Positions 5,900 through 34,019 of a stretch of 64,000 bases of DNA are shown here, one piece after another; position 1 is the stretch's first letter; each line of letters begins with the position of its first letter. Made by a program: the position numbers and the translations under genes. The notes beneath the pieces are model-generated. The model was not told the origin of the DNA. It saw only the letters and a list, made by a program, of their open reading frames with translations, and made no database searches. The DNA comes from Puccinia triticina (Eukaryota; Basidiomycota; Pucciniomycetes; Pucciniales; Pucciniaceae), in the NCBI RefSeq assembly GCF_026914185.1, contig NC_070568.1:2128001-2192000 (forward strand), read 5' to 3'.

Positions 5900-6172
5900 A
5901 TGCCTCCTCCACAATTTGTCGTCGTCAAGAACGAGGGTGGCAAGGAGATTGGAGGCGGCAACCACTACTGCATCATCTGCCGCGCCCCCGCTTCATCTAC
6001 CCCTTCCGGTAAGCACCCCAAGTCCTCTTCATCACATTCCTCTCACAGAATCCCCCGCACACAGCTTAAAAGTTTGAGTTTTGTAAAGCTTGATTTATTT
6101 GAATGTATGAGGTCGGGTTGGATGTGGCCGCAAGACCTGGCTAGCCCTATGACTTCCGAACCCCTGCCCTAA
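5900..6172 (+). CDS. Small-protein array locus 1 (unit 1), NEGG type, splice acceptor lost
   Basis: Exon 1 (5900-6008) encodes 36 residues starting MPPPQ and containing KNEGG and KEIGGGNHYCIICRAP. The usual phase-1 donor (GTAAGC) follows, but the intron's 3' half, the CCTGA mini-exon and the downstream exons are gone. Intron DNA joins at about 6060 to sequence resembling that downstream of locus 5 (about 11215). If unspliced, the frame stays open to 6172, giving 90 residues with a new basic and Ser-rich tail. A CACAG at 6048-6052 could serve as a cryptic acceptor. Unit 1 alone has Phe at residue 6; units 2 and 3 have Val. The ATG at 5900 is preferred over one at 5675 because the TATA box at 5830 lies between them. 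It may be a pseudogene. Confidence 0.5.
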   Translation: MPPPQFVVVKNEGGKEIGGGNHYCIICRAPASSTPSGKHPKSSSSHSSHRIPRTQLKSLSFVKLDLFECMRSGWMWPQDLASPMTSEPLP

Positions 6173-6516
6173 TATAATGGGGTATGAGCCAATCGAGCTC
6201 TAGAGAAAACTAGAGTTTAAGCTCCCTAGGTCGAACCAGAAACACACACAGCTGAGAATTCTGAGGCGATTGAGTTCGGTGAGGTCCGGTGGATGTGGCC
6301 GTCACACCACCTGAGGCCTCTCACTTCCCCGAAAGGAGGAATAATCTTTACTGCCAGGCAAAGGCCGGATGAGTGTCTCCAGTTTCTGAGAAGACTTACA
6401 GCGTAGTCGCGACGCGGGTTAGGATTCCGTCCGAGTGCTACACGATCCGCGCGCGCCCTTTGAGATTGAGATCACGCGGTGACTTGTTGCATAAGCAGAA
6501 CACGAGTCGCACGTCC

Positions 6517-6605
6517 TTTGTGGACACGCGGCGGTTGCCTGGACGAGGGTCTTGGCAGTTTGCGCAGCGCGAGACGCTGAGCCCACCCTCGCCTGTTTAT
6601 AAAAG
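6517..6605 (+). promoter_or_regulatory. Array promoter block and TATA box, locus 2
   Basis: ACACGCGGCGGTTGCC, GACGAGGGTCTTGGCAG, TTGCGCAGCGCGAGAC, then TATAAAAG at 6598-6605. Unit 1 has TGTTTATAAAAG where units 2 and 3 have TGTCTATAAAAG. An extra TCACGCGGTGACTTG copy lies upstream (6476-6490). Confidence 0.75.
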
Positions 6606-6682
6606 ACGAACCACCAAGACCGAACTACCTACCTCCAACCACCAACTCGCCCTCCTCCTCACCCCCTCAGAAAAACAAAAAA

Positions 6683-6873
6683 ATGCCTCCCGTTACCTGC
6701 ACCAACCACGGCAAGGAGATTGGTGGCGGCAACCACTACTGCATTATCTGCCGCGCCCCCGCTCCCCCCACCCCTCCCGGTAAGTGAAAAGAATCCTCTT
6801 CACACAACCCGACTCCTGCAGAACGACTCGACTGACCCAAGATTCCACTTATACTTTGATGTTCCCAGCCTGA
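6683..6873 (+). CDS. Small-protein array locus 2 (unit 1), CTNHG type
   Basis: Exon 1 (6683-6779) encodes 32 residues: MPPVTCTNHG, then KEIGGGNHYCIICRAP and a PPTPP tail. A phase-1 intron (6780-6868, 89 nt, GTAAGT..CAG, CTGAC branch-like site) leads to CCTGA, so the last codon is G+CC (Ala) and the stop follows: 33 residues. If the intron is retained, translation ends after Gly-Lys at a TGA two codons past the donor. There is no signal peptide or membrane segment; a cytosolic protein is likely. The leader is C-rich, then A-rich up to the ATG. Further splice signals follow the stop: a GTAGGT donor at 6951 and a 64-nt exon at 7024-7087. A branch-like site in that second intron reads TACCAAT in unit 1 but TACTAAT in units 2 and 3. 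The family is unrecognised. Confidence 0.8.
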
Positions 6874-7749
6874 ATTCTCCTCCCGCCTGAGGCTCCTGCA
6901 AACTTACTTTGGCCTTTCTGGAACTCTTTCTTTTTTTCTCCGAGCAAACCGTAGGTCTCTTTCAACATCCACATCCTCCTCACTCGAAATCAGCCTTGTA
7001 CCAATTTTTTCCTCCACTATCAGTCTGTGTATCACACTCGGGCACCATCATGGCTGAGCATCTTATTATCTCAATTGATAAATCGAGGTAAGGTATTGGA
7101 TACTATTGCAATCCTTTCGGTTGAATCACACACTGATATCCTTCCTCTCTTCTCTTAACACTGTGGCGTTTCCGACGGCGGTGGTTTCTTTACTCTCCCA
7201 GTTTCCTTTCTGATTTGCAGCCATATTGTTGTATATTTAGTTCTCTCTTTTTTTGCAGATGTTTTTGAAATTCAATGCCTCTTGCCTTGATCGAGCTCTG
7301 AGAAAAAATAGTCTTTTCATGGAAAGAATTTTGCAATTTTATGTGATCTGTACAATGAACATGATAAAATTTGATGACACTCTTACTCGATCCTTCCTCT
7401 GGCAGGACATTGGGAGATTGAACAGTATTCTTGCTTCTTAAAGCATAGGACACCAATATGCGTCACTTGTCTGTCACCGCCAGCTGAGTAACCAGGACAT
7501 TCGCAGCAAAATGGGGTTGAGTCTGATTCCTCCCAATGTGCCAGGTCCGGGTGGATGCGGCTGCCCCACCTTAATTTTACCCTTCTCACTTTCCCGAAAG
7601 GAGAATTGGGAATAATTTAGTGTTTTTTTATATTTGTCCGAACCAGGCCGGCAGAAGGTGTATAGTTTTTTTAGGGGGCTAGCCAAGTCGCGAGGCGGGT
7701 CAGCATTCCGTACGAGTGCTTTGATGCGAAACCCGACTCGCGCGGCCCC

Positions 7750-7838
7750 TTTGTGATCACGCGGCGGTCGCCTCGACGAGGGTGTTGGCAGCTTGCGCAG
7801 CGTGAGACGCTGAGCCCACCTTCCCCTGTCTATAAAAG
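7750..7838 (+). promoter_or_regulatory. Array promoter block and TATA box, locus 3
   Basis: TTTGTGATCACGCGGCGGTC, GACGAGGGTGTTGGCAGC, TTGCGCAGCG, GAGCCCACCTT and TATAAAAG at 7831-7838. The leader to the ATG is 98 bp, pyrimidine-rich then A-rich. Confidence 0.75.
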
Positions 7839-7928
7839 ACTAACCACCAAGACCGAAGTACCTGCCTCCAACCATCACCTCGCCCTCCTCCTCACCCCCT
7901 CAGGAAAAACAAAAAGACAAAAACAAAA

Positions 7929-8122
7929 ATGCCTCCCGTTGTCTGCACCAACCACGGCAAGGAGATCGGTGGCGGCAACCACTACTGCATCATCTGCCGC
8001 GCCCCCGCTCCCCCCACCCCTGCCGGTAAGTGAAAAGAATCCTCTTTGTACAATCCGAGTCCTCAAGAGCGGCTCGATTGACCCAACATACCATTTTTAC
8101 TCTCATGTTCCTTGTAGCCTGA
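7929..8122 (+). CDS. Small-protein array locus 3 (unit 1), CTNHG type
   Basis: Exon 1 (7929-8025) gives MPPVVCTNHG, the KEIGGGNHYCIICRAP core and a PPTPA tail. The intron is 8026-8117 (92 nt, acceptor TGTAG), then CCTGA at 8118-8122: 33 residues. Nearly all third positions are C or G (AAC, CAC, TAC, TGC, CGC, AAG, GAG), a codon bias typical of highly expressed fungal genes and unlike the AT-rich surroundings. Downstream splice signals: donor GTAGGT at 8198, exon 8280-8335, intron 8336-8416, then an exon starting ACGGCGGCGG at 8417. The 8280-8335 exon happens to be open if the CCTGA exon is skipped, but this frame is not kept in loci 2 and 9, so I treat it as untranslated. Confidence 0.8.
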
Positions 8123-9372
8123 ATGTCCTTTCCCCCTCGTCACGCTTCTGGAATCTTTGTTCGGCCTTTCTCGAAATCTTGTTTACTTGAGCAAGTTGTA
8201 GGTCTCTTTTAGTATCCACATCTTCCTCGCTTGGCATCATCATCGGGCTAATTCCTCTGTGACTTTCCTTCAGTATCAGTCTCTGTTCTTCCTCATCATG
8301 GCCAACTAGTCAAGTATCTCAATGGGAACATCGAGGTAAAGCATTGGCTGGTATTGAAATCTCTCGGGATGAATTCCATACTGAATCATTTCTCTTTTCC
8401 CGAAATCTTGTTTCAGACGGCGGCGGTCTCTCTACTCTCTCAAACTTTTTTCTGACTTTTAAACTGGTCTTTGTATCTTTAGTTGTCCTTATTTTCGGGT
8501 GTTTCTCAAATCCAATGCCTTTGATTTGTGACCTTCTCAAACTGCGAAAGCCCTTCCTCAGAGTACTTCTTGAATTGTTTTTGGCCTTCAGGAACAAACC
8601 TGGGATACTCAAGCAATCCTAACTTTTCTTATCCTCATAGTCACCGAATGCATATATCTATATTCCAAGTTTTACAATCGTGCATGGTGTATTTTCCGAA
8701 AGAGAGAAAGAAATCACAATTTACCCTTGCTTAATGTTATTTGGGGAACACGAGCTGCCTCTGTTTCCTGGTCTTCGAGCAGAGTGCAAGCTCTTCCGAA
8801 GTGCCCGGGATTGCCTTAAGAGACAAAGACAAATGTAGTGGCTCGCAAAATGTCCAGAAACAACAATATATATAAGGCCTACCGCTGTCAACCAGCGTCA
8901 CCTCGCTCCCATGTTGTGATTCTTTTCCAGTTTCTGCTCGGGGGTATTCACTCATCGAGCCCGATAGAAAACTGTATTTTACCTCCCCTTGGATAATATA
9001 GTTAGCCCTATTGCATGACTTCTGCCCCCCTCCCCTAGTGTAATCCTGTTTTGCTTTTTCCTCGGGGGTATTAACCAATTGAGCTCGATAGAAAAATTGA
9101 TTTTACTTACCCTCCCTAGGTTGACCCGTACACAGTTGAGAAGTCTGAGGCAGGTTGAGCTCGATAGTTCTGAGGGTTTGAGGTCTCGGTGGATGTGTCC
9201 GTCAGGCCACCTTAGCCCTATAGCTTCCCGAAAGGAGGCATATCTGATTCTTATTATTTGCCGGGAACGGGAAAAAGCATGCTGAGTGTGTAGTTTACAT
9301 GTACAGCAAAGTCGCGATGCGGTTTAGTATTCCGTGCGAGTGCTTTGATGAAAACACGTCGCGCGCGCCCCC

Positions 9373-9447
9373 TTTGAGATCACGCGGTCACGCCCCAATG
9401 CGTGCGCAGCGCAAGACGCCGAGCCCACCTGCACCGGTCTATAAAAG
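9373..9447 (+). promoter_or_regulatory. Array promoter block (short form) and TATA box, locus 4
   Basis: TTTGAGATCACGCGG is followed almost directly by TGCGCAGCGCAAGACG and TATAAAAG (9440-9447). The GACGAGGGTCTTGGCAGC segment found at the other loci is missing, so this promoter is a natural internal deletion. Confidence 0.7.
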
Positions 9448-9517
9448 ACCAACCACCAAGACCGCACTACCTACCTCCAACCATCACCTCGCCCTCCTCT
9501 TCACCCATAAAAAAAGA

Positions 9518-9714
9518 ATGCCTCCCCCACAAGTTGTCGTCTGCACCAACCACGGCAAGGAGATTGGTGGCGGCAACCACTACTGCATTATCTGCCGCAC
9601 CCCCGCTCCCGCCACCCCTCCCGGTAAGTTGAACAAACCCTCTTCGCACGATCCGATCACTTCTGAAACCGACTGACCAGTGATTCAACCTCTGTTCTAA
9701 TCTTCCCAGCCTGA
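9518..9714 (+). CDS. Small-protein array locus 4 (unit 1), hybrid MPPPQ/CTNHG type
   Basis: Exon 1 (9518-9623, 35 codons plus one base) combines the MPPPQVVV start of the NEGG subfamily with the CTNHG segment of the other, then KEIGGGNHYCIICR, TPAPATPP. Arg-Thr-Pro replaces Arg-Ala-Pro here only. Intron 9624-9709 (86 nt), then CCTGA at 9710-9714: 36 residues. With the intron retained, the frame stays open to a TGA at 9674-9676. Downstream: donor GTAGGT at 9798, exon 9882-9949, intron 9950-10037, next exon from ACGGCGGTGG at 10038. The promoter is the short form. The mosaic sequence suggests recombination or conversion between subfamilies. Confidence 0.78.
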
Positions 9715-10461
9715 ATTTCCCTTCTCGTTAACTTCTAGGCTCCTGCAATCTTGCTTTCGGCTTTCTGGAACTCCTTTTTGTTTTTCCTGAGAAAAGTGTA
9801 GGTGTGTCTCTTCCAGGATCCACATCGAAATCAGCCTTGTATTTGTTCCTTTGTCCTGACTTGATTTTCCACAAATTTCAGTGCGTGTACATATCATAGT
9901 CAGTTCAAATCACCCCCGAACAGCCAAGTATCTCAATGCGAACATCGAGGTGAGGTATTGGATACTATTGAAATCTCTCGGGTTGGATTCCACACTGAAT
10001 CCCTCTCCTTTCCCTGACAATTTGTGATATACTTCAGACGGCGGTGGCCTCTCCACTATCCCAATTGTTTCTCTGCTTTTCCACCATGTCTTTGTATCTT
10101 TAGTTTTCCCTGTTTTCCGGCCTTTCTGAAATTCAAAGCCTTCAATTTTTTTCCTTCTCAAAGTGGGAAAGCCCATTTACATTCCGTCTCAAAGCACTCG
10201 TCGGATACTCAAGCAATTCTTCATTGTATGTATACTTAGTGGTGAAATGTTGTTGGCCACTTCCAACGCCTTGATCCTACATGATCATGTTTTCATACTG
10301 CCAAATAGTGGGCTTGTTGCCTACGTTTAACTTTCACCTCGGCATATTCGCCACCGATAAATGCCACTCGTCCAACAAGGCAAGCTGAGTAGGATTCTGA
10401 GGTGGCTAGCGAAATGGCTGCGTTGTTTTAATATTCCGTCAGAGTGCTTTCGCGGGTCCCC

Positions 10462-10550
10462 ATTGTGATCACGCGGCGGTCGCTTGGACGAGGGTCTTGG
10501 CAGCTTGCGCAGCGCAAAGCACGGAGCCCACGTTCGGCGGTCTATAAAGA
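10462..10550 (+). promoter_or_regulatory. Array promoter block and TATA box, locus 5
   Basis: ATTGTGATCACGCGGCGGTC, GACGAGGGTCTTGGCAGC, TTGCGCAGCGCAAAGC and TATAAAGA at 10543-10550. Loci 1, 5 and 8 share the GCGCAAAGCAC variant. Confidence 0.75.
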
Positions 10551-10610
10551 ACGCACCACCAAGACCGGACTACCTAGCTCCAACACTCCTCCCTACCCAC
10601 TCAAAAAAAG

Positions 10611-10807
10611 ATGCCTCCTCCACAAGTTGTTGTCGTCAAGAACGAGGGTGGCAAGGAGATTGGAGGCGGCAACCACTACTGCATCATCTGCCGCGCCCCT
10701 GCTTCACCTACCCCTTCAGGTAAGCACCCCAAGTCCTCTGCATCACATTCCTCTCGCAGAATCCCTCGGCGGACTCGGCTTCTGATTTCACTCTATTCCC
10801 AGCCTGA
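10611..10807 (+). CDS. Small-protein array locus 5 (unit 1), NEGG type
   Basis: Exon 1 (10611-10719) encodes MPPPQVVVVKNEGG, the KEIGGGNHYCIICRAP core and ASPTPS. Intron 10720-10802 (83 nt), then CCTGA at 10803-10807: 37 residues. The NEGG subfamily lacks the first Cys and the His or Gln of the CTN(H/Q)G type, so any metal site would rest on the shared HYCIIC alone. Downstream splice signals: donor GTAGGT at 10880, exon 10954-11044 ending before GTAAGA. That exon contains a long A run (10979-10994) interrupted by G in unit 3. The ATG at 10611 is chosen because it follows the TATA box by 68 bp; an ATG at 10444 lies upstream of the box. Confidence 0.78.
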
Positions 10808-11673
10808 AAACCTTTTCTGCTTTTCTTGATCTGATGGTCGGGCGCCTGGAAGTCTCCCCACCATACTCTTCCTCATGCCGTAGGTTCCTTTCAATGTATA
10901 TTCATCTGGTCTCATTTGCACTGAACTCCCCAGACATTTCTGGTTGCCCTTAGCTCGCCCCTCACGTTTTCTCCGAAAAAAAAAAAAAAAAAAAGCCCTG
11001 TTGATCACAGCAGAAAAATCAAGTCGACATATCTACACAACCATGTAAGACTTGCTATCCTCCCAACATTGCTTGGCTATTGGGCTGATCTCTTGATCGT
11101 TCTCTCCCTTTCGGCCCTCTCGGTACATAGGATCCCCTCCTTTCTGATTTATCTATCTCTTGTTTTTATCACCATCTGTTGTAACTTTACCTTTTCGATC
11201 CTCAGAGTCGCGGAAGTCTGAGCTTTGTAAAGCTTGATTTATTTGAATGTATGAGGTCGGGTTGGATGTGGCCGCAAGACCTGGCTAGCCTTATGACTTC
11301 CGAACCCCTGCCCTAATATAATCCTGATCGGCTTTTTGGTCGGGGGTATGAACCAATCGAGCTCTAGGGAAAACTAGAGTTTAAGCTCACTAGGTTGAAC
11401 CAGAAACACACACAGCTGAGAATTCTGGGGCGAGTTGAGTTCGGTGAGGTCCAGTGGATGTGGCCGTCAGACCACCTGAGGCCTCTCACTTCCCCGACAG
11501 GAGGAATACTCTTTACTGCCAGGCAAGGGCCGGATGAGTGTCTCTAGTTTCTTAGAAGGCTTACAGCGTAGTCGCGACGTGGGTTAGGATTCCGTCCGAG
11601 TGTCCGCGCGCCCCTTTTGAGATTGAGATCACGCGGTGACTTGTTGCATAAGCAGAACACGAGTCGCACGTCC

Positions 11674-11762
11674 TTTGTGGACACGCGGCGGTTGCCTGGA
11701 CGAGGGTCTTGGTAGTTTGCGCAGCGCGAGACGCTGAGCCCACCTTGCCCTGCCTATAAAAG
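11674..11762 (+). promoter_or_regulatory. Array promoter block and TATA box, locus 6
   Basis: Closely matches the locus-2 promoter, including the duplicated CACGCGG words, with TATAAAAG at 11755-11762. Confidence 0.75.
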
Positions 11763-11835
11763 ACGAACCACCAAGACCGAACTACCTACCTCCAACCATC
11801 ACCTCGCCCTCCTCCTGACCTCAGGAAAAAAAACA

Positions 11836-12053
11836 ATGCCTCCCAAAGTTACTGTTGTCTGCACCAACCAGGGCAAGGAGATCGGTGGCGGCAACCACTA
11901 CTGCATCATCTGCCGCGCCCCCGCTCCCACCACCCCCCCCCAGTAAGTGAAAATAATCCTCTTCGCACAACACGACTCCTGCAGAACGACTCGACTGACC
12001 CAAGATTCCACTTTTACTTTGACGCTCCCAGCCTGAATTCTCCTCCCGCCTGA
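11836..12053 (+). CDS. Small-protein array locus 6 (unit 1), CTNQG type, frame-shifted tail
   Basis: Exon 1 starts MPPKVTVVCTNQG, then the KEIGGGNHYCIICRAP core. A run of nine C's (11933-11941) adds one base compared with locus 9 (CCCCTCCC), so the donor at 11943 is in phase 2. Splicing to the usual acceptor (exon 2 from 12032) gives a different tail, HLNSPPA, ending at 12053 (42 residues). Without splicing, CAG-TAA ends the protein at 11946 (36 residues). The C9 tract is the same in all three units. Downstream: donor GTAGGT at 12122 and exon 12195-12252. It is probably functional in either form, but it is the clearest candidate for a drifting copy. Confidence 0.65.
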
Positions 12054-12811
12054 GGCTCCTGCATCCTGCAAACTTACTTTGGCCTTTCTGGAACTCTTTT
12101 TTTTTTTTCTCCGAGCAAACCGTAGGTCTCTTTCAATATCCACATCCTCCTCACTCGAAACCAGCCTTGTACTAATTTTTTCCTCCACTATCAGTCTATC
12201 GCTCGGGCACCATCGTGGCTGAGCATCCGATTATCTCAATTGAAAAATCGAGGTAAGGTATTGGATATTGAAATCCCTCCGGTTGAATAACACACTGATA
12301 TCTTTCCACTCTTCTCTTAGCACTGTGGGATACATTTCCGACGGCGGTGGTTTCTTTACTCTCCTTTGTGATTTGCAGCCATGTCGTTATATATTTAGTT
12401 CTCTTTTCGTGCAGATGTTTTTGAAATTCAATGCCTCTTGCCTTAATCAAGCTCCGAGAAAAAATAGTCTTTTCATGATTGAACAGTATTCTTGTTTCTT
12501 AAAGCATAGGACACCAATATGCGTCACTTGTCCAGCACCGCCAGCTGAGTAAACAGGACATTCGCAGCAAAATGGGGTTGAGTCTGATCGCTCCCAATGT
12601 GCCAGGTCCGGGTGGATGCGGCTGCCCCACCTTAATTTTACCCTTTTCACTTTCCCAAAAGGAGAATTGGGAATAATCTAGTGTTTTTTTATATTTGTCT
12701 GAACCAGGCCGGCAGAAGGTGTACAGTTTTTTTTAGGGGGCTAGCCAAGTCGCGAGGCGAGTCAGCATTCCGTACGAGTGCTTTGATGTGAAACCCGACT
12801 CGCGCGCCCCC

Positions 12812-12900
12812 TTTGTGATCACGCGGCGGTCGCCTCGACGAGGGTGTTGGCAGCTTGCGCAGCGCGAGACGCTGAGCCCACCTTCGCCTGTCTATAAAAG
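12812..12900 (+). promoter_or_regulatory. Array promoter block and TATA box, locus 7
   Basis: Near-identical to the locus-3 promoter. TATAAAAG is at 12893-12900. In unit 2 the box has become TATATAAAAG (37195-37204). Confidence 0.75.
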
Positions 12901-13016
12901 ACGAACCACCAAGACCGAACTACCTCCCTCCAACCATCACCTCGCCTTCCTCCTCACCCCCTCAGGAAAAACAAAAACAAAAACAAAAAAACAAAAACAA
13001 AAAACAAAAAACAAAA

Positions 13017-13210
13017 ATGCCTCCGGTTACCTGCACCAACCACGGCAAGGAGATTGGTGGCGGCAACCACTACTGCATCATCTGCCGCGCCCCCGCTCCC
13101 CCCACCCCTGCCGGTAAGTGAAAAGAATCCTCTTTGCACAATCCGACTCCCGAAGAGCGACTCGACTGACCCAAATTTCCATTTTGACTCTGATCATGTT
13201 CCTAGCCTGA
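13017..13210 (+). CDS. Small-protein array locus 7 (unit 1), CTNHG type
   Basis: Exon 1 (13017-13113) gives MPPVTCTNHG, the core and PPTPA. Intron 13114-13205 (92 nt), then CCTGA at 13206-13210: 33 residues. The 124-bp leader from the TATA box is the longest because of a (CAAAAA)n-like tract at 12966-13016 ending directly at the ATG; units 2 and 3 carry CAACAAC in it. Downstream: GTAGGT at 13286, exon 13368-13423, intron 13424-13504, next exon at 13505. The stretch from here to about 13710 is almost identical to that of locus 3, showing an older internal block duplication. Confidence 0.8.
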
Positions 13211-13943
13211 ATTTCCTTTCCCCCTCGTCACGCTTCTGGACTCTTTCTTCGGCCTTTCCCGAAATATTGTTGACTTGAGCATGTTGTAGGTCTCTTTCAA
13301 TATCCACATCTTCCTCGCTTGGAATCATCATCGGGCTAATTCCTCTGTGACTTTCCTTCAGTATCAGTCTCTGCTCTTCCTCATCATGGCCAGCTAGTCA
13401 AGTATCTCAATGGGAACATCGAGGTAAAGCATTGGCTGGTATTGAAATCTCTCGGGATGAATTCCATACTGAATCATTTCTCTTTTCCCGAAATCTTGTT
13501 TCAGACGGCGGCGGTCTCTCTACTCTCTCAAACTTTTTTCTGACTTTTAAACTGGTCTTTGTATCTTTAGTTGTCCTTATTTTCGGGTGTTTCTGAAATC
13601 CAATGCCTTTGATTTGTGACCTTCTCAAACTGCGAAAGCCCTTCCTCAGAGTACTTCTTGAATTGTTTTTGGCCTTCAGGAACAAACCTGGGATACTCAA
13701 GCAATCCTTCATTGCATCCTTGCCGTTAAAAGGTTGTTATCACCTTGATCCTACATACCTGGATTATGCTCTCAGACCGCCAAATAGTGGGTGCGTCTCA
13801 CCGCAAAAGTATCGGCCACAGATGAGAGCCACTCGTCAAGCATTAAGGCAAGCGGAGTAGGCTTCTCAGGTGGCTTCCGGCATGACTATGCAGTTTAGTA
13901 TGCCGTCCGAGTGCTTTCGGGCGTCCCCTCTCGCCCGTCCTCC

Positions 13944-14025
13944 TTTGTCATCACGCGGCGGTCAGAGGGTCTTGGCACCTTGCGCAGCGCAAAGCACTGA
14001 GCCCACCTTTGCCGCTCTACAAAAG
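13944..14025 (+). promoter_or_regulatory. Array promoter block with altered TATA box, locus 8
   Basis: TTTGTCATCACGCGGCGGTC, AGAGGGTCTTGGCACC and TTGCGCAGCGCAAAGC, but the box reads TACAAAAG (14018-14025) in all three units. A weaker core promoter is plausible (inference). Confidence 0.7.
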
Positions 14026-14084
14026 ACGCACTACCAAGACCAGACTACCTACCTCCAACCTTCCTGCTTACCCACTAAAAACAG

Positions 14085-14285
14085 ATGCCTCCTCCACAAG
14101 TTATCGTCGTCAAGAACGAGGGTGGCAAGGAGATTGGAGGCGGCAACCACTACTGCATCATCTGCCGCGCCCCCGCTCCACCTACCCCTCCAAGTAAGCA
14201 CCCCAAATCCTCTTCATCGCATTACTCGCTAGCTTAGATCCCCTCGACAGGCTCATCTTCTGCTTTCCCACCATTCCCAGCCTGA
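14085..14285 (+). CDS. Small-protein array locus 8 (unit 1), NEGG type
   Basis: Exon 1 (14085-14193) gives MPPPQVIVVKNEGG, the core and APPTPP. The split codon is A+CC (Thr rather than Ala). Intron 14194-14280 (87 nt), CCTGA at 14281-14285: 37 residues. With the intron retained the frame opens for 14 more residues to a TAG. The TATA box is altered to TACAAAAG. Downstream: donor GTAGGT at 14358, exon 14431-14515 ending before GTAAGA, homologous to 10954-11044 of locus 5. The 72 bp at 13749-13820 upstream of this promoter are absent in units 2 and 3. Confidence 0.75.
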
Positions 14286-14632
14286 ACCCCTCTCCTGGTC
14301 TTATTTATATGATGCTTTGGCGCCTGGAAGTCTCCCCATCGTACTCCTCCTCGCGGCGTAGGTTCGCTTCAATGAATAATCATCTGGTATTATTTGTACT
14401 AACTCCTTAAATATTTTTGGTCGCCCTTAGTTCTCCCTCCTACCCATTCGCACAAACAACACTCCGGTCAGTTGATCACCGCAGAATGATCAAGCTGACA
14501 GATCTGCGCAACAATGTAAGACTTGTTGTGCTCTCAACATTGCTTGACTATTGGACTGATTTCTCTCTTTGATCCTCTCCCAGCTTTAAGTACATAGGAG
14601 CTCCCTCCTTTCTGATCTATTCATCATTTGTC

Positions 14633-14722
14633 TTTGTCGCCATCTTTTCTCTTTGTCGCCATCTTTTCTCTTTATCGCCGCTTTTCTCTTTATCGCCACT
14701 TTTCTCTTTATCGCCATCTTTC
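14633..14722. repeat. 18-19 bp minisatellite, five copies (unit 1)
   Basis: Tandem units of TTTGTCGCCATCTTTTCTC and TTTATCGCCACTTTTCTC, five in a row, downstream of locus 8. A Lys/Asp-rich minus-strand frame across it is a by-product. Confidence 0.85.
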
Positions 14723-15519
14723 ATAATGTTACCTTTTCTTGCTTTTTTGATCCTGAGAGTCACGGAATCCATATATTTATTCAAGCTTCCCGATCTTACA
14801 TCGTGTGTTATCCATAACAGAGAAAGATAGTACAAGTTACCCTTGTTTGATGTTACTTGGGGAGCAATGAGCTGCTTGTGTTTCCGGGTCTTCGAAAAGA
14901 GGGAAACCTCATCCCAAGGCAGGGCATTCAAGATATATGCATTGGCTCGGCAAGGGACCAGAGAAATAGGGCCGAGCGCTGTTCCGCCCCTGGTGTGATT
15001 TTGTTCCTGTACCCGTGTCCACTCGGGCGTATTCACTTATCGAGCTGGATAGAAAAATTTATTTTACGGCACCTATGTCAGCCCGTACACACCTTGGAAG
15101 TCTGAGGTGTGTAGAGCTTGATTTCTTTGAATGTTTGAGATCGGGGTTGGATGTGGCCGTAAGACCTGGCTAGCCCTATGACTTCCGACCCTCTCCCCCA
15201 GTGTAATCCTATTCGGCTTTTTGATCAGGGGTAGGAACCAATCGAGCTCTAGGGAAAGCTAGATTTTACGCTCAGGCGAGTAGAGTTCGGTGAGGTCCGG
15301 TGGGTGTGGCCGTCGCATCACCTGAGCCCTGTCAATTTCCGGAAAGGAGAAATAATCTTTACTATCAGGAAAGGAGAAATAATCTTTACTGTCAGGCAAA
15401 GGCCGGCTGAGTGTGTCCAGTTTCTTAGGAGGCTTACAGCGTAGTCGCGACGCCGGTTAGCATTCCGTCCGAGTGCTACACAATCCGCGCGCCCCCTTTG
15501 AGATCACTCGCGCGTCCCC

Positions 15520-15608
15520 TTTGTGATCACGCGGCGGTCGCCTCGACGAGGGTCTTGGCAGCTTGCGCAGCGCGAGACGCTGAGCCCACCTTCCCCTGTC
15601 TATAAAAG
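15520..15608 (+). promoter_or_regulatory. Array promoter block and TATA box, locus 9
   Basis: TTTGTGATCACGCGGCGGTC, GACGAGGGTCTTGGCAGC, TTGCGCAGCGCGAGAC and TATAAAAG at 15601-15608. A second, partial GAGATCACTCGCGCG copy lies just upstream. Confidence 0.75.
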
Positions 15609-15679
15609 ACGGACCACCAAGACCGAATTACCTACCTCCAACCATCACCTCGCCCTCCTCCTGACCTCAGGATAAAAAA

Positions 15680-15880
15680 ATGCCACCCAAAGTTACTGCT
15701 GTCTGCACCAACCAGGGCAAGGAGATCGGTGGCGGCAACCACTACTGCATCATCTGCCGCGCCCCCACTCCCCCCACCCCTCCCAGTAAGTGAAATAAAA
15801 TCTTCTTCGCACAATCTGACTGCTGAAGAGCGACTCGACTGACCCAACATTCCACTTTTACTCTCGTATCCCTAGCCTGA
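15680..15880 (+). CDS. Small-protein array locus 9 (unit 1), CTNQG type
   Basis: Exon 1 (15680-15785) gives MPPKVTAVCTNQG, the core with RAPTPPTPP. The split codon is A+CC (Thr). Intron 15786-15875 (90 nt), CCTGA at 15876-15880: 36 residues. Intron retention would add only Ser-Lys before TGA. Downstream: GTAGGT at 15954, exon 16038-16101, acceptor at 16188 followed by ACGGCGGCGG. This is the last locus of the array. Its 3' flank follows that of locus 2 until 16681, where a Helitron-like end begins, so a tenth locus was probably displaced or never copied. Confidence 0.78.
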
Positions 15881-16681
15881 ATTTTCATCCCCCCTCCTGA
15901 TCAGGCTCCTGGACCCTTGCTCCGTCTGGAACTCTTTTTTACACGAGCAAAGTGTAGGTCTCTTTCAATATCCACACACCTTCCCCGCCCCGAATTATCC
16001 TCATACTAATTCCTTCGTGATTTTCCTCCACTATCAGTCTGTGTATCACACTCGGTCCTGATCATGCCCGAAAATCAAAATATTTAAAGTGGAAAATCAA
16101 GGTGGGGATTGGATACTATTGAAATACTTTAGTTGAATTGTACACTGATATTCTCCCTCTCTTCCTAACACTTTGCGATATACCTCAGACGGCGGCGGTA
16201 TCTCCACTCTTCCTTTTTTGTTTTCCTGCTTTGCAGCTATATTTCTATTTATTTCTTTTTTGTTTGTTTTTTTTGTTGTAGCCATTTTTGAAATTGAATG
16301 CCTCTTGCCTTACTCAAGCTTTGAAAAAAGAAAAAAAAATCCATGATAACCTTGTGAACAAATGATGAACACTTTGACTGATCAACCCTCCCTCTTGCGG
16401 GTTATAAGGAGACTGAACTGCAGTCTTGTCTCTTTTCGACGGGCTAAGATAAGAAAACAGTGTCACTTCTCCAGTAACGCAAGCTGAGTAAACAGGACAT
16501 TTGCAGGTAGATAAGGTTGAGAACCAACCAACATGTTTTTCCAGCAATGCAAGATGAACATTTGCAAGGAAATAGGTTTGCACCTGATTGCTCCCAATTT
16601 TCCAGGGCCAGGTGGATATGGCTGTCCCACCTTTTTCCCAAAACTAGAATTGGGAATTATCCAGTTTTTTTTTTTTATACA

Positions 16682-17707: not shown

Positions 17708-17725
17708 CCTTTGTCTAATACATTA
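17708..17725. other. 18-bp filler at a 187-bp deletion (unit 1 only)
   Basis: Unit 2 has 187 bp here (41941-42127); unit 1 has 18 bp instead (CCTTTGTCTAATACATTA), which copies the adjacent sequence CTTTGTCTAATACATTA. This is a deletion repaired with a templated insertion. Confidence 0.8.
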
Positions 17726-17832: not shown

Positions 17833-18239
17833 CAGTGGGTGCGCTATAGTTTTTGGTGCGGGGTGAAAACATGTAACAACCCAAGTTCACCCAAGTTTAA
17901 CTGAGAGGCATATCACCCATGACCCAGCTCACCTCTCATCATTGGTCAGCAATCAACACCAGCAACACCCCCAATACCTCATGAAACCATTCCCAACTCC
18001 CTCCGCATACCCTCATGATTCTCTCATATTTTTTGAAAAAATATCCAGCAAGTCAAACATTTTCTGATAATTTCATCATGTTTTATCTTTTCTTCTACTT
18101 GCTGTGTAATTATAATGTCTTTTGCATCTTTTTCCTTGACCCCTTGAGCCCTCCTGAGAAATAAAATGGAGCTTTAAAAGTCCTCCTTGTCCCTCAAAAA
18201 TTAAAAAATGGTGCGCCAAAAATTATAGCGCACCCACTG
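17833..18239. mobile_element. 407-bp Tc1/mariner-like MITE (unit 1)
   Basis: The terminal inverted repeat starts CAGTGGGTGCGCTATA and matches over 27 bp with two mismatches. It is flanked by TA on both sides (17831-17832 and 18240-18241), the Tc1/mariner target duplication. The interior is AT-rich with no transposase frame, so it is non-autonomous. The identical insertion at the same site in unit 2 predates the unit duplication. Confidence 0.85.
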
Positions 18240-18730
18240 TACATGTCAGGAGTTCAGGACTTTGAGTGATAGCATGATATGAGCAAGAGGGGCCATGATC
18301 CACATCATTAACCCAAAAAAAGTTAAATGCTAGTGGGAAGACCATGAAGGCTATCCATAAACCAGATGTTTTCAATGGGAAAACAGGCATGCCAATTACA
18401 TATCTATCAATCAAAGGATATGGTGTGTGAGAGCGGGTTGGGGAGACGGAAGGGTTAGAGCTCCAGTAGAGAATCACAATGATGGAGGTTCTGAGTCTAG
18501 ATGCACCATTAATGTTGACATATCCTATGCCCAGAGTTGTCAAGTGGCCTTGTGAATTGTGCTTGGCAAGGCGCTTGATACCCTTGGCTTGTTGGGCTCT
18601 GAGCTTGACAAGGCCAAGACCAGCAGAAAGAATTTCAGTGACAGGTGGTTTTGGATTCCATAGAAGCCTGTGGTAAATATCACAGCAAGAGCGCAATGTG
18701 GACAGCCAAAACAGCGGCCAGGATTGCTTG

Positions 18731-19133
18731 TTAGAAGCAAGACCCAAGAAAGCCCAGAGTGGAGGGGTTCATGTCCGCACCCCAAACTTGGACCTTGAGT
18801 TGGGAAGCTTTGGGGTCGCAGTTGAGGAGCCGGGCTGTCAAGTCTTGGTAGCCATTCTGGATGTTTGATATTGTCAGGTCTGGGTTGTATGTAGGGTCAT
18901 TGATGTCCTACCAGTTAAACTTAAACAAATATGTTTTTTTGTTAAGAAAATTGGCAATGCTTGGAGCCAAAGATGAGGTTTCTTACCCAGTCAAAGGGGA
19001 CACGGCACCAGCCCAGCCTTTTGCTCTTAATGGCTGACAGCAGATTATAAGTGGCCAAGACAAGTTTATTGTGGAGGAGGCCGTCGGCGTCTATTACAGT
19101 GAGCTTGACCTTATTGAACCCTTTGTCAGCTGG
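18731..19133 (-). pseudogene. Two-exon minus-strand gene fragment of unknown family (unit 1)
   Basis: Exon A (19133 down to 18987) encodes 49 residues including KVKLTVIDADGL and GWCRVPFDW. A 79-nt intron (GTAAGA..TAG, TTAAC branch-like site) leads in phase 0 to exon B (18907 down to 18731), 58 residues starting DINDPTYNPD and ending before TAA. A continuous frame across a clean intron suggests a genuine gene origin. There is no start codon at the left end; the next upstream sequence looks like another intron. Just after exon B a different frame stays open for about 170 codons (18747-18223), so a frameshift may have split a longer protein. It lies between Helitron-like ends, so gene capture is plausible. 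The family is unrecognised. Confidence 0.5.
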
Positions 19134-19450
19134 CTACTATGTCAGAGCCACCGTGACATAATATCCAAAGCAAACATGAAATATCATTAGATAAGACCTT
19201 ATTACTGCTATTACTTATACTTACAGATATAAAACCTGGAATATGATTCCGGATTCTGAATCTAAACCCAATTTAACTTAGGGTACCTCACTTCAAGGTA
19301 CCCTTAATTTTTACTGCTTCCTTGTGTAAATGTGCATTGAAAATTTAACAGGTACACTCAAAAGGAGTGATATGTATGCTCATAAGCGTATGTACATATG
19401 CTTATACCCCAGTTTCAGTAACAAAACTGAAGTGTTATGTTTAGCTTAGA

Positions 19451-20700
19451 TGTCAGGCTTGGTGATGCCAAGACACGAAGTCCTCTAGCTACACGAGTGA
19501 CTGCGGCGAGTGGGCGCGTCTGTAGATGCGGTAAGATGATGGTTTATAAAGATTTATATCCCTGATGGGATGTAACGGAGGGGCCGCGAGAGCAGCGGAA
19601 TGGTTAAGGTGCCCTCCGGGGCGGTTCTTACAGGGCCTGACAAGCAGGGGTAGTATGTCCTGTGTTGTCTGGGGTCCGACAAGCGGGGGTTGTTCGACAA
19701 GTTCCCAAGTATATAATTGATGGGGATTACTCCCGAGATGATAAAGAGAAAATGAGCTGGACTTACTGTTGGAGCAGGAGTCCAGCGACGAGCAATGAAT
19801 CTAAAAACAATCTAACACAAGCTGAGAGCGAACTGATCAACGAATATGTTCGGCGAAGTAGTGCGCTGCTGGGCGGTTAAAGTGATTGACGATTCTGGGG
19901 AGCCAGAGTCCTCCCAACACCGGCTTTTATGCTGTTTCTGGGAGGCTCGTCGGCTCGCTATTCTCCTGGATGGCCTTCCAATACATTTTGTTGGAAGGCA
20001 CAGCCTCTTTACTGGTCTTGCTACTCGTAAGACCCGTATCTCTTGGATACCGGTCACAAGGAAGATTCTTTCTTCTCGGAACTCGTTTAAAGAGTTCTAC
20101 TCGAAATGACACGCTAGAGATCCTCTGCTCTCGAGTGGAGGATCACTAGGAGTCGGTTCCTATGCGGAGCTCTTCGGCGATTCGTGTCCGAGTCTTTCCG
20201 CTACTGTTGCTGCGACGGAGCTCGGAAGAAGATTGCTACCACGCGACCAGGTACTGTAGTTCTCTGAGTCGCGTGGCTTGATTGTTTAGCCGCCTACTGG
20301 CGGCTGTTGTTTCCATGCGACCAGGTACTACAGTACTCTGTATCGCGTGGCTGAGTGATTTAGCCGCTAACAAGCCCACGTAGTTTTTGCGCAACCAGTG
20401 GCTGTCTGCTGAGTATTACGTGGGTCTTCTGAGTGGGTCTTTTTATACATGCTCCCTTGTTTTTGTTACTTGTACCTAGTTGGGATATATTGTACAGAAG
20501 AGATTCTGGACCGCGCGGCGGTCCCGTTGGTGTCTAGCTTCTCTAGGAAGCTATTTGTAATATTTAAAACAATTTAAAACAAATCTATGCTGCGCAGAGA
20601 TCCGCGCTGCGGTCTGCTCTGCACCCGGTTTACGGTGCTCTTGGCTGCGCTACCGGAGCTGCAGGCGGGGCTCTATTCTAGAATGGTAGCCCGGCTGACA
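19451..20700. mobile_element. 1250-bp solo LTR with TTAGA target duplication (unit 1 only)
   Basis: It starts TGTCAG and ends CTGACA (TG..CA with 6-bp inverted ends). It is flanked by TTAGA at 19446-19450 and 20701-20705. Unit 2 has the undisturbed site with one TTAGA at 43848-43852. No internal retrotransposon region is present, so this is a solo LTR left by LTR-LTR recombination. Inside are two related hairpin blocks: CCACGCGA..TCGCGTGG at 20239-20276 and a similar one ending near 20352. A TATA-like TTTTTATACATG lies near 20451. The superfamily cannot be told from the LTR alone. Confidence 0.92.
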
Positions 20701-21186
20701 TTAGAAGACAGCACAATACAGGTATGCTTTGCCAAAACCCGCGTGCTGTGCGCTGAATAACACAGCCCATGTGTGACAGGTTTCTCAGAGCCCGCGCGCT
20801 GCACACTACAGAAACCTGTGACAAACCATTTTGTATTATATGAGCGCAAACCCCCGTGCAGGCTTTTACATGTCCCCAAAGGGTTACAAGTACGCATCCT
20901 GGAAAGAATATGACATAATCAGCCCAAAACGTGACACGTTAAATGTTGTACAAATGCCCTACACATGGAATGATGTCATGGAACGTTCCTCATGCAACAG
21001 AAAGACTAGTACATATACAGTACGCCAGATTGGGAAAATTGGGAAATACTGTGGCCCATTCTAGAAAAAATGACCACACGTCTCAGCCCCCCTCTGTACG
21101 GATCTACACCACCACTTGAATTTGAGCTTGGGTTGACGTGGGCCCAACGGCGCGGTTGGCGAAAGGTTGGCCCGGGTGGGCGCCAA

Positions 21187-21309
21187 GGGGACCGGCATCC
21201 TGGAAACATACTTGTTTCAGACAGCACATGCGAAGTCATCCACATTGACTATGGCATCTGTTTTGGTCAAGGCTTGAACCTCATACACCCCAAAGTAGTT
21301 CCTTTTTGA
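21187..21309 (+). pseudogene. PI3K-related kinase catalytic-loop fragment (unit 1)
   Basis: A 40-residue frame begins GDRHPGN and continues to HIDYG and a terminal VPF before TGA. GDRHxxN is the catalytic loop and HID(F/Y)G the metal-binding motif of PI3K-related protein kinases (TOR, ATM/Tel1, SMG1). HIDYG-x-CF with a later PKVVPF looks closest to SMG1 or TOR, but this is from memory of motifs, not a search. The rest of the kinase domain is absent: the upstream frame from 21070 has no kinase features and the stop follows directly after VPF. It is a gene fragment, probably captured by a transposon, and not a functional kinase. Confidence 0.65.
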
Positions 21310-22170
21310 TTCACTCCCAACTTGGAGCTGCTCTTGCAGGATCTGACTATCAGGAGCCAGGGGCGGTGGCGCAAGGGAGCGAACAAGGATGACGAGTTGC
21401 GGATCTTCAAGCATTTTTTTGCCACCACCTTGTGGCATCTCAGTGGCACCCGAGGGGCGCCACCTATGCCCACAGTCCCGGTGGCTCCCCCTAGCATGAC
21501 AGAGTGACGCCTGTACGGCCCTGGGTCCCTGTCACGCCACCGTGGCGCATGGAGTGCTGGGACGCCAGCTGGACGCATTGGCTTTGCCCAATCTGCCCCG
21601 CTGTGTATGGCGGCATCAGACAGGCCAAAAATACGTGTGAAAGCGCCCACAAGTTGGCCAGAAGCCCTGTACTTCCCCTGAGCGCCCCAGAGAGCTTCCA
21701 CGAGTATCCAAAGGGCACTCTGTCCGCCCCAAAAGCCCTTTCCTCACGCTTTGACATACCTACTATAGCTTACCCGCCTTCAACACGTGCTCAATAGCCT
21801 GTTCCTAGTCTGGTAAGCCCCTTAGTAGTTGTTTTTTAGCCCCATTTTTCGCCAGAAACTGCCCAGTGTCCACCCAGCCTCCAGAATCAACCTCTTCAAG
21901 CGCTTCCAACTTCCCAGTTTCTACCCTGAAGAACCTCAAGACTTCAAGGGCTTTATACTAGTAATTTTAAACCCCTTCTCTTGAGATTCTCCACCATTCT
22001 TTACTGGGATTCAAAACACCCCTGTTCACAGGCCCCAGTGTGTAACAGGTACCTAAATCCTCTGTTTTTGCAAGATACCTTTGAGGGATTCAACACTCCT
22101 GATTTTATCAGGCCCCTCTGTATTTAATTGTATTAATTTTATTAATATAATGACACCATTTTCTCATATA
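21310..22170. other. Gene-free stretch, GC-rich then AT-rich
   Basis: 21310-21800 is GC-rich with overlapping open frames on both strands (up to 144 codons) and GTGGCACC/GGGCGCCAC inverted words, but no recognisable protein. A T7/T8 run difference between the units at about 21413 and 44560 shifts these frames, which argues against coding. 21800-22170 is AT-rich and featureless. The unit-2 equivalent is 44457-45319. Confidence 0.45.
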
Positions 22171-22200
22171 CTAGAGGCCAAGGCGGCTTTGCCGCTGCAA
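22171..22200 (-). mobile_element. Helitron-like 3' terminus C (unit 1)
   Basis: Minus-strand GCGGC-AAA-GCCGC hairpin, then CTTGGCCT and CTAG, followed by T. This is the best-formed stem of the three. An element ending here would contain the coding-like remnants at 22900-23700. Confidence 0.58.
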
Positions 22201-22900
22201 ATCCAAATTTGAATGGCTTTAATTCCTTGATATAATTCTCCCTCTTTGGAGCACTCTATCAATCCAGATGTTATATCAATTCAAAGCCCTCAAATTTCAG
22301 CACTCTTCATCATCATTGTTTTAGTCCCAAATGCAGTGGGTAGAACTCCCCAATATGTAACTTCATTCCCATTCTTATCAAAATTATGGATTTGATGGTC
22401 CTGCTCCTGCTGCCTTTAATGTCACTTGGATTCAAAAAGGTGGCCAAAAGCCATGAATTTGCCAAAGCTCTCATGCAGAAGAATCCCAATAACTCATAAG
22501 CCTTCCATTGGAGATGGGAGATGCTTCACATTGAGGTGATCTGCACCCCCAGTCCCAGGAGGCTTAGTTAATTCAGCCCCTCTCAGTGTTTTTATCATTC
22601 ATATGTTTTGGAAGATATCCTAACTTTAACACATTGTTCATCCTCAAATAGAGAGCTGAGAATATGATTATTACAAAGTTTCAATTGAGCTGATGACAAT
22701 GAGACATTTCTTTCCATCTCATTCATAAGCTCATTAAAACTTGGTGGTCTCAAGTGATTCATCATTCAGGCACTCTCAGGTGCAAGAGTATGTTTTCTTG
22801 TTGAGCAGTGTGACCTTGATTTTAGTAAAAGTGCAAGGGGAAAATTTAATGAAATGGTAGCTGCATTCTATAACAACATTGCAAACTTGGTTTTCATTTT
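22201..22900. other. Gene-free AT-rich stretch
   Basis: I see no coding, repeat or RNA signal here. The unit-2 equivalent is 45350-46050. Confidence 0.4.
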
Positions 22901-24095: not shown

Positions 24096-24422
24096 AGCTG
24101 GTCCCTAGTACCCGTTGGCGGGTACCTGTGGAAGAGCGCAGGTATCCGCTGGGTGCAGGTGCGGGTGTCCAGTCTGGGTCCAAATTCAGGCAGGTACCCG
24201 CGCACAAATTGCTATTCTGGGGTGTCCAGTCTGGGTCCAAATTCAGGCAGGTACCCGCGCACAAATTGCTATTCTGCACAGCTCTGCTTGCCCCTAGTGC
24301 CCATTGGCGGGTACTAGGTACCTGTGGACGGGTACCCATGGAAGTACGCAGGTAACTTCCAGCGGGTTCCGGGTGTCCATTCAGGCAGGTACCCACACCC
24401 GCCGCGGGTACCCGGGTGCAAA
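24096..24422. repeat. GGTACC-rich degenerate repeat patch
   Basis: Full-length version at the unit 1/2 phase point. GGTACC and GGGTACC words recur about ten times, and a 57-bp direct duplication lies inside (24163-24276). No function is evident. Confidence 0.6.
24163..24276. repeat. 57-bp direct tandem duplication (2 copies)
   Basis: Two adjacent 57-bp copies, 24163-24219 and 24220-24276, each starting GGGTGTCCAGTCTGGG and ending GCTATTCTG. They appear identical. 57 is a multiple of three, so spurious repetitive peptides arise in open frames here; I do not regard these as genes. Confidence 0.85.
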
Positions 24423-30204: not shown

Positions 30205-30477
30205 ATGCCTCCTCCACAAGTTGTCGTCGTCAAGAACGAGGGTGGCAAGGAGATTGGAGGCGGCAACCACTACTGCATCATCTGCCGCGCCCCCGCTTCA
30301 TCTACCCCTTCCGGTAAGCACCCCAAGTCCTCTTCATCACATTCCTCTCACAGAATCCCCCGCACACAGCTTAAAAGTTTGAGTTTTGTAAAGCTTGATT
30401 TATTTGAATGTATGAGGTCGGGTTGGATGTGGCCGCAAGACCTGGCTAGTCCTATGACTTCCGAACCCCTGCCCTAA
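30205..30477 (+). CDS. Small-protein array locus 1 (unit 2), acceptor lost
   Basis: Same structure as 5900-6172: exon 1 at 30205-30313, donor GTAAGC, no normal acceptor, unspliced frame open to 30477 (90 residues). TATA box at 30135. Residue 6 is Val, matching locus 5, so Phe in unit 1 is the derived state. Confidence 0.5.
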   Translation: MPPPQVVVVKNEGGKEIGGGNHYCIICRAPASSTPSGKHPKSSSSHSSHRIPRTQLKSLSFVKLDLFECMRSGWMWPQDLASPMTSEPLP

Positions 30478-30987: not shown

Positions 30988-31178
30988 ATGCCTCCCGTTA
31001 CCTGCACCAACCACGGCAAGGAGATTGGTGGCGGCAACCACTACTGCATTATCTGCCGCGCCCCCGCTCCCCCCACCCCTCCCGGTAAGTGAAAAGAATC
31101 CTCTTCACACAACCCGACTCCTGCAGAACGACTCGACTGACCCAAGATTCCACTTATACTTTGATGTTCCCAGCCTGA
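30988..31178 (+). CDS. Small-protein array locus 2 (unit 2)
   Basis: Exon 1 30988-31084, intron 31085-31173, CCTGA 31174-31178; 33 residues identical to unit 1. TATAAAAG at 30903. The second intron has the consensus-like TACTAAT branch sequence that unit 1 lacks. Confidence 0.8.
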
Positions 31179-32233: not shown

Positions 32234-32427
32234 ATGCCTCCCGTTGTCTGCACCAACCACGGCAAGGAGATCGGTGGCGGCAACCACTACTGCATCATCT
32301 GCCGCGCCCCCGCTCCCCCCACCCCTGCCGGTAAGTGAAAAGAATCCTCTTTGTACAATCCGAGTCCTCAAGAGCGGCTCGATTGACCCAACATACCATT
32401 TTTACTCTCATGTTCCTTGTAGCCTGA
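32234..32427 (+). CDS. Small-protein array locus 3 (unit 2)
   Basis: Exon 1 32234-32330, intron 32331-32422, CCTGA 32423-32427; 33 residues as in unit 1. TATAAAAG at 32136. The leader reads GACGAACCACC where unit 1 has GACTAACCACC. Confidence 0.8.
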
Positions 32428-33822: not shown

Positions 33823-34019
33823 ATGCCTCCCCCACAAGTTGTCGTCTGCACCAACCACGGCAAGGAGATTGGTGGCGGCAACCACTACTGCATTATCTGC
33901 CGCACCCCCGCTCCCGCCACCCCTCCCGGTAAGTTGAACAAACCCTCTTCGCACGATCCGATCACTTCTGAAACCGACTGACCAGTGATTCAACCTCTGT
34001 TCTAATCTTCCCAGCCTGA
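33823..34019 (+). CDS. Small-protein array locus 4 (unit 2)
   Basis: Exon 1 33823-33928, intron 33929-34014, CCTGA 34015-34019; 36 residues, hybrid type with the short promoter (TATAAAAG at 33745). Confidence 0.78.

Follow-up and report, generated by a model that had tools for sequence, protein, structure and literature searches.

What protein family is repeated along a 64,000-nucleotide stretch of the Puccinia triticina genome (NC_070568.1, positions 2,128,001 to 2,192,000; hereafter the window), and does it belong to anything already described? The window corresponds to C11:2128001-2192000 of a 122.8 Mb, 18-contig genome. A sequence-only reading of it had reported 27 loci for proteins of 33-37 residues and knew of no family with this sequence. 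That last claim fails: the core shared by the peptides is the end, CaaX box included, of the rust pheromone precursor MFA2, and the contig with the array also carries the pheromone receptor gene STE3 and mfa2. Judged by its letters, the array family is not an orphan. Our overall interpretation, held tentatively and with slightly less than even confidence, is that the array encodes single-module, tail-capped MFA2-type pheromone precursors, amplified on the STE3/mfa2 (pheromone/receptor, PR) mating-type chromosome.

The evidence that carries this assignment is the invariant core EIGGGNHYCIIC, which is identical in every array peptide and equals the last 12 residues of MFA2. An open reading frame (ORF) of 33 codons at C11:1852382-1852480 reads ...GEIGGGNHYCIIC and then a stop, and so ends in EIGGGNHYCIIC-stop. 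Pfam STE3 (PF02076) matches were found at C11:1850517-1851156 on the strand opposite to this ORF; with the receptor ATG read at 1851508, the start-to-start distance between the two is 874 bp. For P. triticina Pt64, Table 4 of PMC8358450 places STE3.2 on the minus strand and mfa2, a 99 bp ORF, on the plus strand, 874 bp apart. Since STE3 adjoins the 33-codon ORF and both the 874 bp and the 99 bp agree with that table, we concluded from its sequence and setting that this ORF is mfa2. The array lies 0.25-0.47 Mb from it on the same contig. C1 carries another STE3 match, consistent with the published location of STE3.2-1 on chromosome 1 (PMC10977897); the PR chromosome is number 9 in that paper and number 7 in Pt64 (PMC8358450), and its contig here is C11. 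Positions G3, G5, H7 and C9 are common to EIGGGNHYC and to the mature 9-mers published for MFA1 (QWGNGSHMC) and MFA3 (QWGNGSHYC) of Puccinia graminis f. sp. tritici (PMC10977897, section 7). When an MFA1-type module was sought in the present haplotype, the sole hit had an E value of 1.46 and was taken as chance.

Could the 12-residue identity with MFA2 be a coincidence? The leaders of the two proteins do not align, and nothing else was found that would support such a reading. Twelve consecutive residues are identical, however, and a protein search of the whole genome at E up to 10 returned 83 matches, every one of them on C11. The array accounted for 81, and the other two were at 2018158 and 1852442. 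Once the array and an array-type pseudogene are set aside, a single match is left in 122.8 Mb, and it adjoins STE3. Coincidence deserves hardly any credence, and it is very likely that the array core is the MFA2 module.

Within the window, the 27 loci that had been claimed were all recovered, every one on the plus strand and nine in each of three tandem units; the back-translated core pattern gave 27 matches against none in 100 dinucleotide shuffles. Self-BLAST placed the unit starts at 1, 24305 and 47458, with lengths of 24.3 kb and 23.2 kb and a third unit that is cut off by the window edge. The three units are ~99.86% identical across long blocks, a near-identity that reduces the independent evidence to about nine paralogues and not 27. 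The units (from self-BLAST and the genome-wide unit map), their loci and one example of the shared upstream block (from the upstream alignment and the TATA offsets) are given below in window coordinates; the module is EIGGGNHYCIIC.

1-24304, no strand: array unit A, nine loci between 5900 and about 16100, remainder spacer
24305-47457, no strand: array unit B
47458-64000, no strand: array unit C, cut off by the window edge
5900-6008, plus: locus A1 exon 1; module 5945-5980; shared exon 2 acceptor not found
6683-6779, plus: locus A2 exon 1; module 6716-6751; exon 2 from 6869
7929-8025, plus: locus A3 exon 1; module 7962-7997; exon 2 from 8118
9368-9517, plus: shared promoter and leader block, example of locus A4; TATA box 78 nt upstream of the ATG
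9518-9623, plus: locus A4 exon 1; module 9560-9595; exon 2 from 9710
10611-10719, plus: locus A5 exon 1; module 10656-10691; exon 2 from 10803
11836-11942, plus: locus A6 exon 1, extra C before the donor (predicted 42 residues); module 11878-11913; exon 2 from 12032
13017-13113, plus: locus A7 exon 1; module 13050-13085; exon 2 from 13206
14085-14193, plus: locus A8 exon 1; module 14130-14165; exon 2 from 14281
15680-15785, plus: locus A9 exon 1; module 15722-15757; exon 2 from 15876
30205-30313, plus: locus B1 exon 1; shared exon 2 acceptor not found
30988-31084, plus: locus B2 exon 1; exon 2 from 31174
32234-32330, plus: locus B3 exon 1; exon 2 from 32423
33823-33928, plus: locus B4 exon 1; exon 2 from 34015
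34916-35024, plus: locus B5 exon 1; exon 2 from 35108
36140-36246, plus: locus B6 exon 1, extra C like A6; exon 2 from 36336
37321-37417, plus: locus B7 exon 1; exon 2 from 37510
38317-38425, plus: locus B8 exon 1; exon 2 from 38513
39912-40017, plus: locus B9 exon 1; exon 2 from 40108
53358-53466, plus: locus C1 exon 1; shared exon 2 acceptor not found
54141-54237, plus: locus C2 exon 1; exon 2 from 54327
55387-55483, plus: locus C3 exon 1; exon 2 from 55576
56976-57081, plus: locus C4 exon 1; exon 2 from 57168
58069-58177, plus: locus C5 exon 1; exon 2 from 58261
59294-59400, plus: locus C6 exon 1, extra C like A6; exon 2 from 59490
60475-60571, plus: locus C7 exon 1; exon 2 from 60664
61471-61579, plus: locus C8 exon 1; exon 2 from 61667
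63066-63171, plus: locus C9 exon 1; exon 2 from 63262

The gene plan that the sequence-only reading had extended to all nine loci of a unit (exon 1, intron, exon 2) holds for eight of them; in the remaining one, the first in every unit (5900, 30205 and 53358), an acceptor with the shared CCTGA could not be located. In the eight, according to predicted splicing, exon 1 measures 97-109 nt and is followed by an intron of 83-92 nt that begins with GTAAG[TC] and whose acceptor directly precedes CCTGA. In seven of the eight, the third nucleotide of exon 2 (AG/CCTGA) is the first of the stop codon, and these seven have the claimed length of 33-37 residues. The exception is the locus at 11836, where one additional C before the donor causes the CCTGA stop to be missed and the predicted protein to reach 42 residues. 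A TATAAA box is present in eight of the nine loci, whereas 14085 has TACAAA; in the eight loci that follow the plan, the TATA-like box lies 67-124 nt upstream of the ATG. Over the 150 nt upstream of the ATG, the mean pairwise identity among eight loci is 83% in ungapped columns, with gap positions making up 26%. The downstream exons are shared in part only, the first 200 nt of exon 2 averaging 63% identity. In the loci at 7929, 9518 and 13017, a candidate intron of the 3' untranslated region was noted 3' of the stop in exon 2, both of its edges matching the patterns in three of eight loci; transcripts spliced in this way could be targets of nonsense-mediated decay.

That the core is unchanged across the loci was confirmed: GKEIGGGNHYCIICR is invariant, and the three of its codons that vary do so synonymously. 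Over the 15-codon core, the proportion of nonsynonymous differences (pN) was 0.000 and that of synonymous differences (pS) 0.149 in 36 paralogue pairs from the nine window loci, which supports the proposed purifying selection on a tiny protein. In the same nine paralogues the tail gave a pS of 0.229 and a pN of 0.130, and the last six leader codons a pS of 0.243 and a pN of 0.379. Among the eight loci the core averaged 97% identity, intron 1 66%, the opening 200 nt of exon 2 63% and the region from -700 to -300 54%. Because the identity and pN of the core contrast with those of the leader, tail, introns and exon 2, selection is, by these estimates, sharpest on the pheromone module. The comparison with mfa2 itself showed 6-7 synonymous and no nonsynonymous differences from the nine window loci over 12 codons, or, by the Nei-Gojobori method, 6-7 differences on 7.0 synonymous sites and none on 29.0 nonsynonymous sites; six random substitutions kept the peptide unchanged in a fraction of 7.5e-5 of 200,000 simulations. 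The preference for G/C-ending codons was likewise real, GC content at third codon positions being 0.58-0.84 in eight loci, compared with 0.42 for mfa2 and 0.40 for a single STE3 exon. This codon usage is compatible with high expression, of which it is no proof.

These values also bear on whether the array might be a passive satellite, that is, a repeat amplified in a mating-type region of low recombination, whose core was homogenized by gene conversion and not by function. The units are about 99.9% identical, and allele-specific repeat clusters have been published around STE3.2-2 in P. triticina (PMC10977897, section 12), both in keeping with such an origin. However, the paralogues diverge in intron 1 (66%), early exon 2 (63%) and the leader while the core shows no nonsynonymous change, and the core is kept in other Puccinia species; we therefore consider the satellite explanation very improbable.

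Across the genome there is only one array, with 81 open exon-1 copies in ten units, the last two of which are degenerate, extending over C11:2106639-2323202 (~217 kb). Copy counts of repeats are lower bounds, and the array map, which covered C11:2090001-2330000, required a ATGCCNCC start with HYC nearby, so that broken copies may have escaped it. A six-frame scan of the mapped C11 region for core fragments found none besides the 81, and no internal stop was reported in any array match of the genome protein search. The 81 copies comprise 12 distinct exon-1 sequences. Several indels (72 nt, about 170 nt, 1.25 kb and 3.7 kb) distinguish units across the array and argue against a simple stutter of the assembly. 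In the window, these inter-unit indels lie at 13749-13819 (about 72 nt), 17709-17725 (about 170 nt), 19451-20700 (1.25 kb) and 19143-22883 (3.7 kb), and they could serve as markers of unit lineages.

The array-type pseudogene is located between mfa2 and the array at C11:2018158-2018217 on the minus strand; it retains part of the module and the tail and has lost the start and leader, and the DNA around it matches an array unit at 73-91%. As for the spacer, the segment at 18000-19400 has a 99% copy at C11:2050819, and C1 and C3 hold relatives at 88-92%. Within it, a stretch of some 280 nt (about 19124-19400) recurs on many contigs at 82-88%; both statements refer to the 40 of 403 candidates that were scored. 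A perfect two-copy tandem repeat of 57 nt occupies 24163-24276 and again 47316-47429. The spacer also contains a fragment of a PI3K-like kinase domain (21010-21504, plus strand; PF00454, E 1.7e-10), with a unit B copy from about 44157; its nearest PDB match is SMG1, and a stop at 21307-21309 interrupts it. None of 15 other open stretches of the unit matched above the curated cut-off.

Is the module confined to this genome? A single-sequence protein search yielded no candidate relative; profile searches yielded 11 related proteins and then 25 that included those 11. Their species labels are P. coronata (seven), P. striiformis (three), P. sorghi (two), P. graminis (two) and Kocuria (one), with 10 lacking a species name; hence 14 of the 15 labelled homologues are from Puccinia and represent four named species besides this genome. 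The protein labelled Kocuria sp. (P0020) comes from a 755 bp contig that encodes the peptide of the locus at 9518 and, ahead of it, an almost unchanged translation of that locus's 5' flank; contamination of a bacterial assembly with rust DNA is the probable explanation. A lysine precedes the module in 25 of 25 homologues, and the nine residues read EIGGGNHYC in 15, EIGGSNHYC in eight and EMGGGNHYC in two. The pattern KEIGG[GS]NHYC-x-IC is kept in 23 of the 25; the same number carry C-[ITV]-I-C, never at the terminus, with the first aliphatic position occupied by I in 14, T in seven and V in two. The two homologues devoid of a box (P0024 and P0025) are weak hits, with E values of 0.03 and 0.13. 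The homologues are gene models whose tails past the module may be mispredicted, and the relative search, which needs shared 5-residue words and is length-limited, does not show absence outside Puccinia.

Viral and bacterial/archaeal collections, from which records near the window's genome were possibly left out, contained no relatives. The hmmscan comparison of three variants with Pfam gave no family at E up to 10, a PDB sequence search with one variant gave no match, and Rfam (window, gathering cut-offs) and ARAGORN found nothing for the array family. An AlphaFold2 model had a mean predicted local distance difference test score of 50.7, a predicted template modeling score of 0.12 and no secondary structure, and is uninformative either way. 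Two peptide classes were considered and dropped: a metallothionein-like peptide, since there are only two or three Cys residues, and an MSDIN-like peptide, since the core is constant and not variable.

Another alternative is an exapted module, in which the peptides derive from a pheromone gene, or are its source, and now have another intracellular role such as metal binding through the His and the two or three Cys. A distinct leader whose PPxVxVV pattern is kept in the homologues would agree with this, as would the fact that no promoter sharing with mfa2 was seen and that the module is alike across species even though MFA2 is reported to be species-specific (PMC10977897). On the other hand, the constraint spans the pheromone end piece and its box, with the habits of a CaaX box, and STE3 and mfa2 are on the same contig as the array. 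Exaptation seems to us distinctly unlikely, and we think that the array peptides probably act somewhere in pheromone signalling.

How might a peptide of this layout signal? Each predicted protein has one module and not two or more in tandem, and a size within the range of a short precursor (about 30-80 residues), namely 33-37 residues and in one case 42, as predicted from splicing in eight of nine loci per unit. A lysine immediately precedes EIGGGNHYC-IIC; next to the box on its other side comes, in this genome, an arginine, and then a tail rich in Pro, Thr and Ala. The module flanks are single basic residues only. The predicted array peptides do not end in the CaaX box of an a-type pheromone precursor and yet contain its module. 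In CaaX boxes, the first aliphatic place varies while the second and the last residue are constant. The constraint on the array box follows the same habits, which suggests that at some point the box still serves as a prenylation signal and favors trimming followed by farnesylation. Once the gene is expressed and spliced, the peptide would be cleaved at the basic residues flanking the module, giving a mature peptide that, we infer, starts at E; the arginine would then be trimmed to leave a terminal CIIC box, the cysteine would be farnesylated and IIC taken off, and the product would be exported as additional MFA2-type pheromone for the opposite receptor, STE3.2-3. This trimming-and-farnesylation route is plausible, though we lean somewhat against it.

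Several observations weigh against reading the array as a source of MFA2-type pheromone. The CaaX box is never terminal: after CIIC, all 81 copies, with their 12 distinct exon-1 sequences, go on with CGC (Arg) and a tail, 0 of 25 homologues end there and all 23 box-bearing ones continue past it, so that none could be farnesylated as translated by the usual route. The residue after the box is R in 17 of these 23; it is Q in four, all from P. coronata, H in one and C in one. Kex2-type proteases are luminal, and farnesyltransferase is cytosolic. No signal peptide, which a secreted rust effector would have at its N-terminus, was evident by eye in the array leaders, and the array leader is unlike that of MFA2. 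Words conserved in the nine array promoters were not enriched in the mfa2/STE3 intergene when compared with 300 shuffles. (The smut pheromone response element, ACAAAGGGA, was present in none of the nine array promoters, and its core ACAAAG in six of nine and once in the mfa2/STE3 intergene; we draw nothing from this.) In Trichoderma HPP1, the Kex2 sites are not essential (PMC3068285).

The published descriptions of MFA2 add to these points. Section 7 of PMC10977897 gives MFA2 as 34 residues, on the same strand as STE3.2-2 and 500-1100 bp from it, whereas MFA2 here has 33 residues and is on the opposite strand. The latter features agree with Pt64 and with Cuomo et al. (PMC5295586), who described Ptmfa2 as encoding 33 residues with CAAX and as a gene divergent from STE3.2, at a spacing of 605 bp. 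Mature MFA2 is also called sequence-specific in each species (PMC10977897, section 7), yet proteins labelled P. striiformis and P. graminis have the same array module, EIGGGNHYC, as this genome; if the MFA2 of those species differs within the nine residues, the match with the array is not kept species by species. Owing to this reported specificity, we slightly lowered our confidence in a signalling role, in the route and in the overall interpretation.

The main rival of the favored explanation takes the tail at face value. As a capped decoy, the peptide would be permanently blocked from prenylation, and a soluble, unlipidated pheromone body would compete with or dampen MFA2 signalling; in this way a dikaryon with both pheromones and both receptors could, for instance, be kept from stimulating itself constantly. 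All 81 copies and all 23 box-bearing homologues have a tail after the CaaX box, and the cap is thus as conserved as the module; leader and tail vary, and the module is constant. A decoy of the mature peptide, however, needs no particular residue at the second aliphatic or the last place, yet I and C are invariant there in 23 homologues; and a peptide with neither lipid nor evident signal peptide has no known route out of the cell. A decoy is in our estimation unlikely, and tail-capped pheromone precursors remain our preferred description.

Compared with known systems, the nearest likeness is to mfa2 itself, the gene beside STE3.2-2: the 12-residue end piece is identical, the lengths are similar (33 versus 33-37 residues) and the contig is the same. 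Unlike the array peptides, which are tailed and number 81 copies, MFA2 stops right after CIIC, is single in the genome and has another leader and promoter. The rhodotorucine A precursor, HPP1 (PMC3068285) and rust MFA1 (PMC10977897) are precedents for the array in that the module is followed by more residues, from which it would need to be excised. These proteins contain several modules each, three repeats in rust MFA1 (PMC10977897, section 7) and, in the rhodotorucine A precursor, tandem pheromone units with CAAX-like spacers between them (PMC3068285), whereas an array protein contains one and the repetition is at the gene level. HPP1 ends in a CAAX domain (PMC3068285); the array peptides have no terminal box.

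Amplified pheromone genes have been described in another rust. In Austropuccinia psidii, 137 mfa1 and four mfa3 genes are clustered in the likely non-recombining STE3.2-3 region, and 33 mfa2 genes lie on the PR chromosomes with 314 more elsewhere; according to the same paper only two or three mfa copies are known in other rusts (PMC12774611). The likeness is in the many pheromone genes of a rust, and it shows that their expansion is not unique, which lowers the surprise of the present array. The A. psidii genes were selected for their CAAX motifs, in the case of mfa2 for CAAX-stop, and the mfa2 genes there are dispersed, whereas the modules here are MFA2-type, non-terminal and confined to one tandem array. 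In P. coronata, a large allele-specific repetitive region is found beside the STE3.2 alleles (PMC11642970). For the STE3.2-2 repeat clusters of P. triticina, section 12 of PMC10977897 names no gene. The array family may fill part of this gap, though here it is 0.25 Mb or more from the receptor. Neither the core fragments nor four homologue locus tags turned up in the literature text searched, which took in few subscription papers and no figures, so that an earlier notice is possible.

For the biology of rust mating, one consequence is that searches for CAAX followed by a stop would miss the 81 capped modules and find one pheromone gene of this type in the genome. A further idea, which we regard as rather doubtful, is that the array constitutes a second, amplified layer of mating-type signalling in Puccinia: one nucleus would produce large amounts of unlipidated MFA2 mimics, which would either be stored as tail-protected precursors or, as decoys, keep the dikaryon from self-signalling. 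If true, a gene family tied to the mating-type chromosome would have been invisible to such searches. The array makes it testable whether copy number or tail-capping controls self-signalling in a dikaryon that has both pheromones and both receptors.

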